A stretch of 57,069 nucleotides of DNA, taken from contig VEMX01000016.1 in assembly GCA_009711805.1 (NCBI GenBank), forward strand, positions 1 through 57,069. The letters are read 5' to 3'. The notes below the pieces were generated by a model. The model was not told the origin of the DNA. It saw nothing but the letters and a program-made list of their open reading frames with translations, and did not search any database. This DNA is from Balneolaceae bacterium. GTDB taxonomy: Bacteria; Bacteroidota; Rhodothermia; Balneolales; Balneolaceae. The position numbers were made by a program, and so were the translations under genes. Shown here in pieces: positions 23,823 to 29,033 of the stretch. The number at the start of each line of letters is the position of its first letter. Position 1 is the stretch's first letter.

Positions 23823-24401
23823 TCATAATTTATCCCAAACTCTGTCTATATGTTTTTTTTGAAGAATCATATATAATCCCAATGCTCCCGTAGTTTGTAC
23901 TATAACCTCTTCAGAATTAATTTTTGGACTTATACTCTCATTTAAGCCTTGTGTAGACTTATAATCATATTCTCTTTTTGTAATAATGAATTGTGGTATT
24001 GTTAATTTTTTTTGGGGGTTTATCTTTTCCCAATAATAATTCTGAAAACCTACATTTGCTAAGCCGTTACCAATAGATATTTCATCAAAATTATGAATTT
24101 TTTTTAAGTGACTTAAACCCTCTTCAATATTTATCTCACTCGAAATGCCAATCGTAGTAAACCCATAATTTTGCTCTACAGCAATACTATCAATTTTATG
24201 AGCCAACTTTAAAAATAATGTTGGTATGCTTTCATCATTTGCTGCAACACATGATGAACTTCCTATATATACCAATACAAGTTCTGATCGTTGCGAAAAG
24301 TAATTAGGGATTGAGTTTTTTGAAGGAAACAACGTGCAATTTGAAAAACCTCCTAAAATTGCAAAAAAAATAAAGGCTCCTAAAGTAGGTAGTTTTTTCA
24401 T
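23823..24401 (-). CDS. thioredoxin-like lipoprotein, cassette copy A
   Basis: The start is ATG 24401, with AGG just upstream, four bases after the propeller stop; an earlier ATG at 24419 would overlap. The product is ~192 residues with a lipoprotein signal MKKLPTLGAFIFFAILGGFSNC. The mature part begins with a beta strand and SSSC motif (ELVLVYIGSSSCVAANDESIP), aligned with CSSC in the second copy at 26.1 kb, suggesting a thioredoxin-like fold with a reduced active site. It keeps the downstream helix and strands that copy B lost. Family unnamed. It is paired with a six-bladed propeller lipoprotein. Confidence 0.6.
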   Translation of the reverse strand: MKKLPTLGAFIFFAILGGFSNCTLFPSKNSIPNYFSQRSELVLVYIGSSSCVAANDESIPTLFLKLAHKIDSIAVEQNYGFTTIGISSEINIEEGLSHLKKIHNFDEISIGNGLANVGFQNYYWEKINPQKKLTIPQFIITKREYDYKSTQGLNESISPKINSEEVIVQTTGALGLYMILQKKHIDRVWDKL

Positions 24402-24405
24402 TAAC

Positions 24406-25644
24406 CTAATCAATCTCATAAATAATTACTTTTGGTAAAGTAAAAGAGTTAAAATTTGTTTCCTCTTCTGTTAGAAGAACTGCTTTATTTTGATTGGCGT
24501 CCATATATCTACTTTTAAAAGAATCTGAATAGAATAATTCACCATTCGAAGAATTAATAAAGACCGTATGCGGTTTCATATCGGATACAGTATTTTTACT
24601 GTTTATCAGTTTTTCTAACGATTGACTTGTAAATTGATTTCCAAATTGTATTACAGAAAACCCTCCCTTGTAATTTTGTAATGGGAATAAATGATTATAG
24701 CTTTGATTATTAGTTGCACCAAATCTTATTCCTGCATTTGGAGAATTGATATTAACTTCTTCAATGCCGCTATATTTAAACTTAGCTATTCTTGAAGTCC
24801 ATTTAAGTTTTCCATCAACACTATAGCCAAACAGATATGCAAAATGTTTCAAAACAGTCACTATTGTTCCTGCCTGTTCATCACAGCTCATCATCGTGTT
24901 TGAAAGCATTGCATCCAGAACAGGAGATCCAGAATAGGAGGTATATAATTGCCCAAATGAATTTACTATTTCTCCAGTATTCATATCAAACTCATGAACT
25001 GGTTTTGTAGTTTGTATATTGGCGAAAGCCCCTTCCTTCCTGGAAGTTGAGTCTGCCTTGACGTATTGAAACCCTTGAATAAATAATTTATTCTCAAGCA
25101 TACAAAGATCATAAGACATATTAAGCCTATGTATTATTGTATTGCTGGGTTCGAACCTATTTCCGTCATTAATTTTAAAGACATCAATTTCGTGTCGATC
25201 AAGAACATATAATTCTGAAAAATCAGAGTTAAATTCAAAAGTCCGCATACTCGAGAATTCCCCGGGGCCATTTCCCCCTCTTCCAATACTATATTCAAAT
25301 TCACCAACAGGAGAATAAACCAAAATAGTATTCGCCTGTTGCTTTAGAACATATAGGTTCCCCGCATTATCAATTCTTATCTCTTGAACATCATATATTT
25401 GAATGCTCAACGAATCTGTTTGTTTGGATTTAAAAGAATGAAGAATATTTTCTTGATTAAAATCCTTAACCAACTCCTCAGCACTTAGGTATGCATCAGA
25501 TTGAATATCAAGAGCATAATCTAATGGTTCAAATTGTGCTAATTTTTCACTGGAGGGATGCCTATTTTTGCTTGATGAATTTGAGCAACTAAAAAAGATC
25601 AAACTAACAACAACATAAATGTAACAGCTACGATTTTTAATCAA
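24406..25644 (-). CDS. six-bladed beta-propeller (NHL-like) lipoprotein, cassette copy A
   Basis: About 412 residues if it starts at TTG 25644, which overlaps the end of the Cys-rich peptide frame; GTG 25653 or ATG 25674 are alternatives. Signal: IKNRSCYIYVVVSLIFFSC, a lipobox ending at Cys. The propeller contains QEIRIDNAGNLYVLKQQANTI, YSPVGEFEYSIGRGGNGPGEF and LYVLDRHEIDVFKIN, the strand pattern of six-bladed propellers common in Bacteroidota. It is similar in sequence order to the frameshifted copy B (IGRxGxGPGEF, CDE...GTI). A binding or surface-sensing role is likely; the ligand is unknown. Confidence 0.75.
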   Translation of the reverse strand: MIKNRSCYIYVVVSLIFFSCSNSSSKNRHPSSEKLAQFEPLDYALDIQSDAYLSAEELVKDFNQENILHSFKSKQTDSLSIQIYDVQEIRIDNAGNLYVLKQQANTILVYSPVGEFEYSIGRGGNGPGEFSSMRTFEFNSDFSELYVLDRHEIDVFKINDGNRFEPSNTIIHRLNMSYDLCMLENKLFIQGFQYVKADSTSRKEGAFANIQTTKPVHEFDMNTGEIVNSFGQLYTSYSGSPVLDAMLSNTMMSCDEQAGTIVTVLKHFAYLFGYSVDGKLKWTSRIAKFKYSGIEEVNINSPNAGIRFGATNNQSYNHLFPLQNYKGGFSVIQFGNQFTSQSLEKLINSKNTVSDMKPHTVFINSSNGELFYSDSFKSRYMDANQNKAVLLTEEETNFNSFTLPKVIIYEID

Positions 25645-25913
25645 ATATTCCACATGTACTTGTATAACATCCATTATCACTATTAGCTCCTCCATCATGT
25701 ACGCAACTTACATGATCCTCATCAGGATATGCACATAGATTATAACACCTTTTAAAATACCACGGTCCAAAACAAACAGTCATATTCGAACAGATTCCTC
25801 CATTACAGCTCCCTTCTATTGAAGCATCGGCTGTAGAAATTAAGCTTTTATTTGCATTCACCGAATGAAGCTAACAGTAAGATCGAAAACGCTAGTATAA
25901 ACCTTTTACCCAT
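25637..25913 (-). pseudogene. cysteine-rich secreted peptide (NVEALA-like neighbourhood), frameshifted
   Basis: Minus-strand frame from ATG 25913 gives a signal peptide (MGKRFILAFSILLLASF) and then runs out of frame at about 25861. A one-base shift at a GG joins it to VNANKSLISTADASIEG followed by an eight-cysteine tail ending at 25637 (SCNGGICSN, VCFGPWYFKRCYNLC, HVSCVHDGG, GCYTSTCGIFD). The joined product would be ~90 residues with a perfect VNA signal-peptidase site. A short secreted Cys-rich peptide next to six-bladed propeller genes recalls the NVEALA peptides of Bacteroides. Either a real frameshift or a sequencing error. Confidence 0.6.
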
Positions 25914-26234
25914 ATCTTTGTCTTTTTTGATGCTTTTCCCTAAATAATAAGTAATTAATTCAAAGTCAAAGATTAACTTTATTAGCTTATTCATCAAAAC
26001 AAACAGAGCCCATTCAGATACTAATCCAGGAATTTTTTCATTACTGGCAAATGGACACGAAGAACAACCAATGAAAATTAAAGCTAATTGATCTTCCCCG
26101 GTTGATCTTATTTCATAGGTTGGCTCTTTTTTAGAAAATGGATCCACCCATATCATTTTCATCCCTATGGCAATTGCCCCTCCCAAAACAAAACACCCCA
26201 GCACAACCAATATAAAGTTGACTTTATTTTTCAT
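25914..26234 (-). pseudogene. truncated thioredoxin-like membrane-anchored protein, cassette copy B
   Basis: Starts at ATG 26234, overlapping the propeller stop (ATGA). The N-terminus is a membrane anchor (NFILVVLGCFVLGGAIAIG), then DQLALIFIGCSSCPFASNEKIPGL with a CxxC motif aligned with copy A. After IPGL the similarity stops abruptly; the frame goes on through AT-rich sequence (LMNKLIKLIFDFELITYYL) into the peptide gene start and ends at 25848. So about 120 residues of the fold are deleted. Probably non-functional, but the anchor and CxxC are left. Confidence 0.6.
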
Positions 26235-27464
26235 CGGTCATAAGTATAGATTTCCAGCAAGTATTTTTGTTCGTTCTCATCATAATCAGCAGCTATTACT
26301 TGTTCACCTCTTCTTGCCACAATAAACATGGAGTGGGTATCTGAGTATAGAACTTCTCCCGTTTGGGTATCTACAATCAGGTTCCGGTAATTTTCACTTC
26401 GGGGAGGAAGAGCTTTTTTAGTTTGCTCATCGGCTCTCTGTGGGGGCAGCTCAAGAAGCTGTACAAGTGCCTTGTGATCGGTATGAATCTCTCTGAACCG
26501 GTAATAAGCATCGAATATTTGCTTATTGGCATACTGAACAAGGTTAGAGTACCCTCCCGGCTTAAATTTTTCAAGTGTCTCTGCAGGACGAAAACCCAAC
26601 AATTTACTGCCCCAAGTCTGCCGGCCAGAGGACGTATAACTAAAGAGGAAGGGTAATAATTATGGTTTGCCCACGTTCATCACAGTTGAGAATTGTAGCC
26701 GACATTATTCCTGTCCACCCTCCAAAACCAGACATAGAAGTATACTGATACCCAAAATTATGTTGCTGCTCAAAGTTTTTAAGATCGAATACCGCTATCG
26801 GCTTGGTTGCCCTCACCGAATTATACCCTTCTATTTGCGCTGCTTTGCTTCGGAGATCTCTGATGGAATCAATCTCGGCAGTAGAAATAGTAAATCCTGA
26901 AATGTACAGGCTGCTATCTAATAAACATAGATCTATTGCTTCCTCATTTAGTCGATGAAAAAAGGTGTCTCTATACTCAAAGTTGTTCCCGCTGCGTTCA
27001 AAAACTTCAACCTTTAGCTGATCCAGGGCATATAACCGCTCATATTGTGCATCAAAATCAAAAGTAGTTAAATCGAGAAATTCTCCCGGTCCGCGGCCCC
27101 ATCTACCAATAGAAGTAAAAAACGTTCCGTCAGGATTATACACATCAATTTTATTACGATCGGTATTAACCACATAAATATACCCCTCCGGGTCAATATC
27201 AATCTTGTTCGGTAAACGAATATACTCCCGTTCAACGTTTTTCTCATCCCCGATTACCGCTGACAACGATAGATGATCCTTGTACATGAATGGCAATAAG
27301 GAATCGGACGATGGTTCATCAAGTGATATAGTCCAATCCATCTCTGCATCCTTCGGCAATCGCTCGGGCAAAGGGTGCCACACTTCTTTATTTCCCCAGG
27401 AAGAGCAGCCACTGATTAGGTAAAGAAAGAAAACTAAGACCCCTAAATAATGTCTTTTTTTCAT
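26231..27464 (-). pseudogene. six-bladed beta-propeller lipoprotein, cassette copy B, frameshifted
   Basis: From ATG 27464 the frame encodes a lipoprotein signal (MKKRHYLGVLVFFLYLISGC) and the propeller (IDIDPEGYIYVVNTDRNKIDVY, IGRWGRGPGEF, LNCDERGQTIIIT), stopping at 26640. A one-base shift near 26640 restores an open frame (LFSYTSSGRQTWGSKLLGF...) that runs to 26231, so a single frameshift and perhaps a small deletion splits one gene of ~410 codons. It is the homologue of copy A. An IS256 element sits 57 bp upstream and may have removed its promoter. Confidence 0.75.
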
Positions 27465-27521
27465 TAGATATTAGACTAATGGTTATGCAACTTTAGTTTT
27501 TGGCGGTCAAGTCCTAAATTC

Positions 27522-28915
27522 TGTGTAAAAACAAGAATGGGTTATGCTGCAAGATTAAAGGAGATTCGGTTATCGGTTAGGGATATATGATGTTTCTCGC
27601 ACATGGTTTGGCGCAGCGTTTTTAGTAGAATCAGATCATGCTCGTCCATGGTTACCCGTTGCCATCGTCTGGCTGCCCGAATAAGGGTACCATAAACCAA
27701 TTTCATGGCTCCTTTTTCATTGACATGACTGGGAATAATTTTAGTTCGCCGTTTTTGTTCGACAAAACTACGTTCGATCAGGTTGGTGGTACGAATACTT
27801 CGGCGATGCCCATGTGGATAGTTCAGGTGAACCAAGCAGGCCGGCAGATCATCATTAAAACATTTAACCATTCCGGGATACTGCTCGCCATAATCGGTAA
27901 TAAACGCTTTCGATAACCCGTGGGCAGTTTCAAGGTCCGGGGCATAATAGATGGCCTTCAGACGTGCCTTAATGGGATCGGTGATCTGTTTATCCCGGGG
28001 CAGTTTATTCATAACATTGCGCATTTTATGGGCAATACACCGCCCGCGATCAGCCAGGGGAAAACTTCGGGCAATCGCTGAGGCAATGCCACCTGCTCCA
28101 TCACTGACAACCAGCAAGGGATGAGCCAGCCCACGTTCTTTCAAATCTTCAAAAAACGTTTGCCAACATTCTTTGGATTCACTGGCCACGGCCTCCAAAC
28201 CCAAAAGGACTTTCCGACCATCGGAACAGATTCCCCAGGCGCATAATATGGTTTGTCCGCCGGTGTACTTGCGCACCGACTCATACACTCCGTCTACAAA
28301 CAGATAGACCACATCATACTCACTCAAATCCTGCTGGCTCCACCGTTGATATTCGGTATAAAGCTCCTCGGAGAGCTGACTGGTCAGGTTGCGTGAAAGA
28401 ATGGGAGTTCCTTGCCCGTCAACCAGGGTTTCCTCGATATCACGCGTGGAGAGTCCTCGCACGTACATCTCGGCCGAGAGCTTTACCAGCCGATCTTCAA
28501 TACGATCAATACGGGATAAAAGCTTACTCTCGAAAGGTTCTTGATTGTCTCGAATACGCGGACGTTGCAAGGTAATCGGCCCCTGTGTTGTTTTAAAAGT
28601 AACCGGTGTATACCCGTTGCGGTAACCGTTATGCTCTTGTTCTTCTCGGCCCCGCTCATACCAGCCCCGGCCTAAAAATTCATCCACTTCTCCCTCACTG
28701 GCCTCTTGCAAAATACGTTCGGCTCCAAGACGGATCAGCTCAGTTAACAGATCATCACTTGACGGGCTTCCATCAAGAAGTTCTTCAATGGCTTTGTTCA
28801 CTCGTTCAGATGGTTTAACTTTCTTACTCATGGGTGTTGTTCTATTGGTTTTTGGTTTTCTGTTGCAAGACAACCAAATCTAACCTTTAGACAGCACCTA
28901 TTCTATTTTTACACA
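27522..28915 (-). mobile_element. IS256-family insertion sequence
   Basis: Inverted repeats TGTGTAAAAACAAGAAT at the left and, reversed, TGTGTAAAAATAGAATA at the right bound 1394 bp holding one transposase gene. No matching target duplication is seen in the flanks, so the element may be old or the flanks rearranged. Confidence 0.85.
27542..28831 (-). CDS. IS256-family transposase (mutator-type DDE)
   Basis: I choose ATG 28831 (MSKKVKPSERVNKAIEELL), giving ~429 residues; an upstream in-frame start at 28873 is possible. Features: the N-terminal DNA-binding region with GRGWYERGREEQEHNGYRNGY, LRRPR-type segment TLQRPRIRDNQEPF, then the catalytic acids in YLFVDGVYESV, LVVSDGAGG and TNLIERSFVEQKRRTKIIP. 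The full family length and lack of stops suggest it could still be active. It is flanked by the inverted repeats described for the element. Confidence 0.93.
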   Translation of the reverse strand: MSKKVKPSERVNKAIEELLDGSPSSDDLLTELIRLGAERILQEASEGEVDEFLGRGWYERGREEQEHNGYRNGYTPVTFKTTQGPITLQRPRIRDNQEPFESKLLSRIDRIEDRLVKLSAEMYVRGLSTRDIEETLVDGQGTPILSRNLTSQLSEELYTEYQRWSQQDLSEYDVVYLFVDGVYESVRKYTGGQTILCAWGICSDGRKVLLGLEAVASESKECWQTFFEDLKERGLAHPLLVVSDGAGGIASAIARSFPLADRGRCIAHKMRNVMNKLPRDKQITDPIKARLKAIYYAPDLETAHGLSKAFITDYGEQYPGMVKCFNDDLPACLVHLNYPHGHRRSIRTTNLIERSFVEQKRRTKIIPSHVNEKGAMKLVYGTLIRAARRWQRVTMDEHDLILLKTLRQTMCEKHHISLTDNRISFNLAA

Positions 28916-29033
28916 AGTATAGGGACATCACCGTTTTTGGCTAATGAGGATACAAATTTTTTTAGTTCATTCATCAAAACATATAAATCAGTACCTTCAG
29001 GCTGAATAAAATTCAATAACACTAAAAAGATCG

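Follow-up and report, generated by a model that had tools for sequence, protein, structure and literature searches.

The window, that is, the whole stretch of 57,069 nucleotides analysed from contig VEMX01000016.1 of a Balneolaceae bacterium (assembly GCA_009711805.1), carries two neighbouring paralogous gene cassettes on its minus strand from position 27464 to 23823, with junctions that overlap or touch. Read along the minus strand, the order is a six-bladed beta-propeller lipoprotein (27464-26231), a thioredoxin-like thiol protein (26234-25848), a cysteine-rich open reading frame (ORF; 25861-25637), a second propeller (25698-24406) and a second thiol protein (24419-23823). The canonical order of the unit is peptide, propeller, thiol protein, and both of the window's cassettes, which lie side by side and are partly decayed, are of this kind. 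The association of propeller, thiol protein and peptide at this locus is decisively more than chance. A preliminary description of this DNA had reported the gene order, the overlapping or touching junctions and the lipoprotein character of the propellers, and all of these are present: both propellers match PF17170 and both have a lipobox-like cysteine. It had also proposed a duplicated cassette with a cysteine-rich peptide between the copies. The two paralogous cassettes are indeed adjacent, but a recent local duplication was ruled out, as the window propellers are 35% identical and no closer to each other than to the propeller on contig C3 of the same genome. The peptide is likewise present as an eight-cysteine ORF, but it belongs to the downstream cassette as its first gene and has no in-frame signal. 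The features of the locus are as follows.

27504..28933, minus strand: IS256-family insertion element (PF00872, E 1e-73; NF033543, E 4e-88; 28-nucleotide imperfect inverted repeats)
26231..27464, minus strand: upstream six-bladed propeller lipoprotein, frame-broken (PF17170, E 4e-12; tblastn with a paralogue matches in two frames)
25848..26234, minus strand: upstream thioredoxin-like protein, membrane anchored, truncated (thiol profile matches at 26013-26219 and 26019-26234)
25848..25913, minus strand: leader-like hydrophobic segment of the peptide gene (three-frame translation)
25637..25861, minus strand: mature part of the cysteine-rich peptide, eight cysteines, first gene of the downstream cassette (peptide profile match at 25649-25849, E 8.7e-7)
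24406..25698, minus strand: downstream six-bladed propeller lipoprotein, intact (PF17170, E 5e-10; AlphaFold2 model)
23823..24419, minus strand: downstream thioredoxin-like partner of 198 residues, intact (family alignment; AlphaFold2 model)

The unit recurs in the genome from which the window was taken, where PF17170 has 48 matches. The surroundings of 50 propellers (366 kb) were scanned with a heuristic rule that accepted ORFs of 45-130 residues with a hydrophobic N-terminus followed by at least four cysteines. Small secreted cysteine-rich ORFs were found 25 times on the same strand within 700 bp of a propeller (21 of them upstream), twice on the opposite strand and six times elsewhere in the 366 kb (binomial p 3e-21), and 22 of the 50 propellers have a same-strand ORF of this kind within 700 bp. 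Sets of peptide, propeller and thiol gene lie on contigs C3, C48, C63, C94 and C57 and are intact, save for an internal stop in the thiol gene of C57. On contigs C35, C9, C2, C10 and C50, peptide and propeller are accompanied by other CxxC proteins. A signal peptidase I gene is placed between peptide and propeller on C63, and signal peptidases of the S26 family are shared by the cassettes of C63, C10 and another genome, G013, and by a Bacteroidales-type NVEALA locus described below.

Outside this genome, the parts were also found together. The preliminary description held that the unit would be a coincidence if relatives carried the propeller with neither a small cysteine-rich gene nor a CxxC partner nearby. 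Relatives did not bear this condition out. When loci were collected from the peptide side, a propeller was present at 29 of the 30 fetched loci and a thiol gene at 15, within only 1.5 kb. The profile used for this, built from 26 peptides, found relatives in 27 of the 245 genomes of the class. Because it was trained on propeller neighbours, the fair count is that of loci outside the training set, and there a propeller accompanies the peptide in 16 of 16 independent loci. With about 50 propellers in 4.08 Mb, their density by itself would put one beside an estimated 5% of loci. Of 296 genomes of the phylum, 23 have members matched by a profile of the thiol partner, and most of these belong to the same class. 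The 45 matching frames, a count in which split genes appear twice and five loci had been selected by peptide, include 38 with a propeller, 32 with a cysteine-rich peptide and 30 with both within 2.8 kb. The genomes share ancestry, and no p-values were computed across them.

The peptide precursors, of 70-100 residues, begin with a Sec-type leader; in the mature part that follows, a six-cysteine framework is the sole fixed feature. Aligned over 26 otherwise dissimilar peptides, the framework reads C-x(2-4)-C-x(n)-C-x(n)-C-x(n)-C-x(3,4)-C, often with CExDxC at its start. In the window, the peptide's mature part also follows this framework, with two extra cysteines, and was matched at E 8.7e-7 by a profile that included the window peptide itself. 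Pfam, NCBIfam and PDB structure searches with the peptides returned nothing convincing, and on sequence comparison the framework is a new one outside any Pfam or NCBIfam family. Orthologous peptides from three genomes gave nonsynonymous over synonymous substitution rates (dN/dS) of 0.013/0.095, 0.023/0.061 and 0.20/2.33. These low values indicate that the peptides are real genes under purifying selection. At the C-terminus, 34 of the 64 peptides have Asp or Glu, often as PE, PD, ME or QE, which is far above chance for a set whose members are not independent. A free acidic C-terminus may thus serve as a recognition tail. At L053:3903-7297 in genome G013, three tandem six-cysteine peptide genes, alike in their leaders but not in their mature parts, precede one propeller gene and one thiol gene; a signal peptidase gene and a four-cysteine peptide on the opposite strand are also present there. 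A single operon on contig C50 (L088:3365-5556) holds two six-cysteine peptides of another framework, a propeller and an ABC (ATP-binding cassette) transporter ATPase.

The window copies of the unit are in part decayed. The transposase ORF of the IS256 element spans 27542-28873, and the element ends some 40 bp short of the upstream propeller, in the place where relatives have the peptide gene. The ORF of the upstream propeller (27464-26640) ends at a stop at 26640, with the frame broken near 26650 and homology resuming in another frame to 26231. In the upstream thiol protein, the first 70 or so residues are homologous to the family (model positions 5-70) and are followed by unrelated sequence. 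Three-frame translation revealed no in-frame signal peptide for the cysteine-rich ORF at 25861-25637. A typical leader is encoded at 25913-25848 (MGKRFILAFSILLLASFG...), but it terminates in a stop and its frame differs from that of the mature part, whereas the hydrophobic leader and mature part are in frame in relatives. With the two parts out of frame, the window peptide, as sequenced, is not a secreted protein. The frameshifts in the window are due either to mutation or to assembly error.

A search against six-bladed propeller models, which the preliminary description had suggested, placed both window propellers in PF17170 (DUF5128), with 39.6 and 46.3 bits against a curated cut-off of 22.9. 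The true start of the downstream propeller probably lies downstream of the first ATG of its ORF. Its AlphaFold2 model has a propeller fold (predicted local distance difference test score, pLDDT, 83; predicted template modelling score, pTM, 0.82) and resembles NHL propellers (Z 20) as well as the Bacteroides structures 3s9j (DUF4221; Z 18.2) and 4raa (BF0058; Z 18.3). A scan of the genome contigs with the propeller as query returned a single weak relative. Two internal cysteines, C199 and C272, are conserved in propellers linked to the thiol family of the window: in the window's genome, at least two internal cysteines occur in 8 of 9 thiol-linked propellers versus 7 of 41 others (Fisher p 9e-5). 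Propellers of relatives retain the pair or have a C-x4-C pair elsewhere. About ten residues past the lipobox cysteine, the thiol-linked propellers also share an HP motif whose Pro is invariant (window:24406-25698 and aligned relatives).

The AlphaFold2 model of the downstream thiol partner (pLDDT 83) matches TlpA/ResA and tryparedoxin folds (Foldseek probability 1.00; VIA-align Z 8.8-9.1, root-mean-square deviation 3.3-3.5 over 117-122 residues). The window thiol proteins themselves have no Pfam match, PF13905 being reached by divergent members, and phmmer with a CxxC member of the family against the PDB gave weak matches only. In both partners, the preliminary description had read CSSC or SSSC after the anchor as a thiol motif. 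The letters are right, but this string is not the catalytic motif and was read in the wrong register. The single invariant cysteine across 15 members is Cys57 (C57) of the downstream copy, the last cysteine of CSSC, and it aligns with the first cysteine of WCVPC or DCGPC in members with a full motif. The extra cysteine of CSSC, three residues upstream, is not conserved, and CSSC was thereby ruled out as the thiol motif. In the thioredoxin register, Cys57-x-x-60, position 60 is Ala in both window copies (SSC-VA-A and SSC-PF-A), so that neither copy has a CxxC redox pair where helix 1 begins. The partner thus shares its fold with TlpA, ResA, CcmG and tryparedoxin, and some members of the family have WCxPC-like motifs and reach PF13905; the window copies differ in reading C-x-x-A/S, without the second active-site cysteine, and, in one copy, in having an extra upstream cysteine. 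Judged from the alignment, this thioredoxin-like partner is often monothiol, a feature suggestive of mixed-disulfide or isomerase chemistry over simple oxidation.

The preliminary description likened the locus to the NVEALA-peptide loci of Bacteroides. The likeness holds for architecture but not for membership. A profile search gave no PF14055 match in the window's genome and none among the 26 peptides, and NVEALA membership was ruled out on this basis. In genome G273, taken to be of the order Bacteroidales, NVEALA genes directly precede six-bladed propellers of three Pfam families (PF17170, PF15869 and PF13970). A propeller was found within 1.5 kb at at least 19 of 24 NVEALA matches, and a 20th (L192) was recognised by Pfam. 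Both kinds of locus place a small precursor with a hydrophobic leader and a cysteine-containing tail directly before a six-bladed propeller. One G273 locus, with NVEALA peptide, propeller, signal peptidase S26 and a CTSC lipoprotein, has the same four parts as contig C63. The peptides described here differ in having no NVEALA motif and in showing the six-cysteine framework with its CExDxC start. An hhalign comparison of the thiol family with the Bacteroidales-type CTSC protein gave no significant match (probability 1%), and homology between them was rejected. As neither the peptide types nor the thiol proteins are detectably related, the resemblance points to convergent recruitment, or to very deep divergence, around a constant propeller.

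A third type of precursor is found beside the same propellers. Genome-wide, the leader pattern MN(A/S)IKLLSR has four matches, all of them beside propellers. The four precursors are cysteine-rich, have a leader ending in GG (AG in one) and each lie directly upstream of a PF17170 propeller. They resemble the double-glycine precursors of Bacteroidota described by TIGR04149, NF047798 and NF047792 ('putative bacteriocin'), with scores that do not exceed the curated cut-offs; their leader and export route are other than those of the Sec-type six-cysteine peptides. These four bacteriocin-like precursors are encoded on contigs C21 (L083) and C86 (L084), with C39 peptidase fragments nearby. Contig C76 (L193:416-5833) has a complete bacteriocin-like cluster made up of a C39-peptidase ABC exporter, a CQFC thioredoxin-like protein, a double-glycine precursor whose core is rich in Gly and Ala, an AraC-type helix-turn-helix (HTH) protein, a cysteine-rich ORF and a propeller. 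The window cassette has no C39 ABC exporter. The same propeller family follows the peptide whatever the export route, and this points to the mature peptide, not to any single route of export, as what the propeller works with.

Small genes for stand-alone HTH proteins of the AraC type adjoin propeller cassettes at L053:3554-3880, L071:2621-2860, L071:17142-17462, L078:3594-3902, L086:2629-3045, L088:2843-3226, L089:2416-2691 and L132:2501-2947. From these loci, which are sightings and not an enrichment, the AraC-type protein is a candidate regulator of the unit.

How might the parts work together? The precursor would leave the cytoplasm through Sec and be cleaved by signal peptidase I, for which some loci have a dedicated S26 enzyme. 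The thioredoxin-like protein may then form or shuffle disulfides in the peptide, in the propeller's own cysteine pair, or in both, and the propeller would bind the mature peptide outside the inner membrane. With three precursor types (six-cysteine Sec peptides, NVEALA peptides and double-glycine precursors) found beside propellers, it is quite possible, if short of probable, that the six-bladed propeller lipoproteins of Bacteroidota act generally as cognate partners to disulfide-rich peptides that are secreted, with a constant propeller and at least three unrelated types of precursor. As to the peptides of the Sec-type cassettes, it is tentatively proposed, as the preferred reading, that they are bacteriocin-like secreted effectors, with the propeller as the binding, carrier or immunity lipoprotein of the producer. 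This proposal draws on the window's own genome, which puts the propeller family directly after four double-glycine precursors and in a C39-exporter cluster, and it fits the wider genome slightly better than the maturation, export or signalling unit suggested by the preliminary description. There are parallels in class II bacteriocin operons. PedC, a thiol-disulfide oxidoreductase, is reported to improve the potency of pediocin (PMC4919988), accessory thiol proteins are described for Gram-positive bacteriocins (PMC4919988, PMC5465099), and NisI is presented as a lipoprotein immunity factor (PMC4094520). Likewise, a single operon in these systems brings together a small disulfide-bonded secreted peptide, its dedicated thioredoxin-like protein and a further partner. 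The cassette described here differs in having a Sec-type leader in place of double glycine, a Gram-negative-type envelope and a propeller in place of a known immunity fold. Several observations weigh against a bacteriocin-like role. Orthologous peptides show purifying, not diversifying, selection (few pairs); in the window, neither the peptide nor the upstream propeller looks functional; and the thiol partner there is without the second active-site cysteine that an oxidant or reductant should have. On C21 and C86, the double-glycine loci are adjoined by C39 fragments only, most Sec-type cassettes have no ABC exporter, and Sec-type peptides end in the periplasm, with no dedicated outer-membrane exporter found in most cassettes.

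Other explanations were weighed against the same data. In a signalling unit, the peptide would be a pheromone or cue and the propeller a surface or periplasmic receptor, coupled to nearby AraC-type regulators or to other receptors. The AraC-type HTH genes beside several cassettes (L053, L071 twice, L078, L086, L088, L089 and L132) are in keeping with this, as are the one-to-one or two-to-two numbers of peptides and propellers at L025, L140 and L141 and the purifying selection on orthologous peptides. The propeller, however, has no transmembrane or cytoplasmic part for passing a signal on, no recurring sensor kinase or TonB-type anti-sigma partner was found, and the AraC adjacency is not an enrichment figure, so that signalling appears rather unlikely. 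An assembly unit for a structural or surface cysteine-rich peptide, with the propeller as chaperone and the thioredoxin-fold protein as disulfide isomerase and no part in killing or signalling, is also an unlikely account. It would explain the thioredoxin-like fold, the membrane or lipid anchor, the dedicated signal peptidase of some loci and the acidic C-terminal residue of 34 of 64 peptides as a possible recognition tail. Yet many peptide-linked propellers have a different thiol protein or none, from which it follows that disulfide handling is not the constant part, and the patchy spread (27 of 245 genomes) is unlike that of a structural component.

The thiol protein could instead serve the propeller's own cysteine pair (C199 and C272) and not the peptide, leaving peptide and propeller as a separate pair. 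The cysteine pair does track the thiol family (8 of 9 versus 7 of 41, as given above), relatives keep a pair, and peptides beside propellers without internal cysteines lack the window thiol family. In some of these cassettes, however, CxxC proteins of other types (thB, C9 and C35) are present, which shows a thiol partner to be common even where the propeller has no cysteine, and this division of the unit is considered improbable. The least credible account is chance, in which the cysteine-rich ORF would be a spurious frame and its neighbours unrelated lipoproteins. The window ORF without an in-frame leader and its two broken neighbours could be read in this way, but the same-strand enrichment (p 3e-21), the propeller at 29 of 30 peptide-first loci and the low dN/dS values refute it for the family as a whole, leaving it next to no probability.

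The link between peptide and propeller offers a testable hypothesis for abundant propellers with solved but unexplained structures (4raa and 3s9j), as well as for NVEALA peptides. If propellers are general partners of such peptides, a function would be given to DUF5128, TolB-like and DUF4221 lipoproteins, of which a genome has dozens. Should the peptides prove to be bacteriocins or signals, they would form a large unmined source of pairs of peptide ligand and partner, overlooked by standard gene callers and family libraries. Among the neighbours of the cassettes, MacB/FtsX permeases were seen near the C48, C46 and G013 loci; this family is abundant generally.

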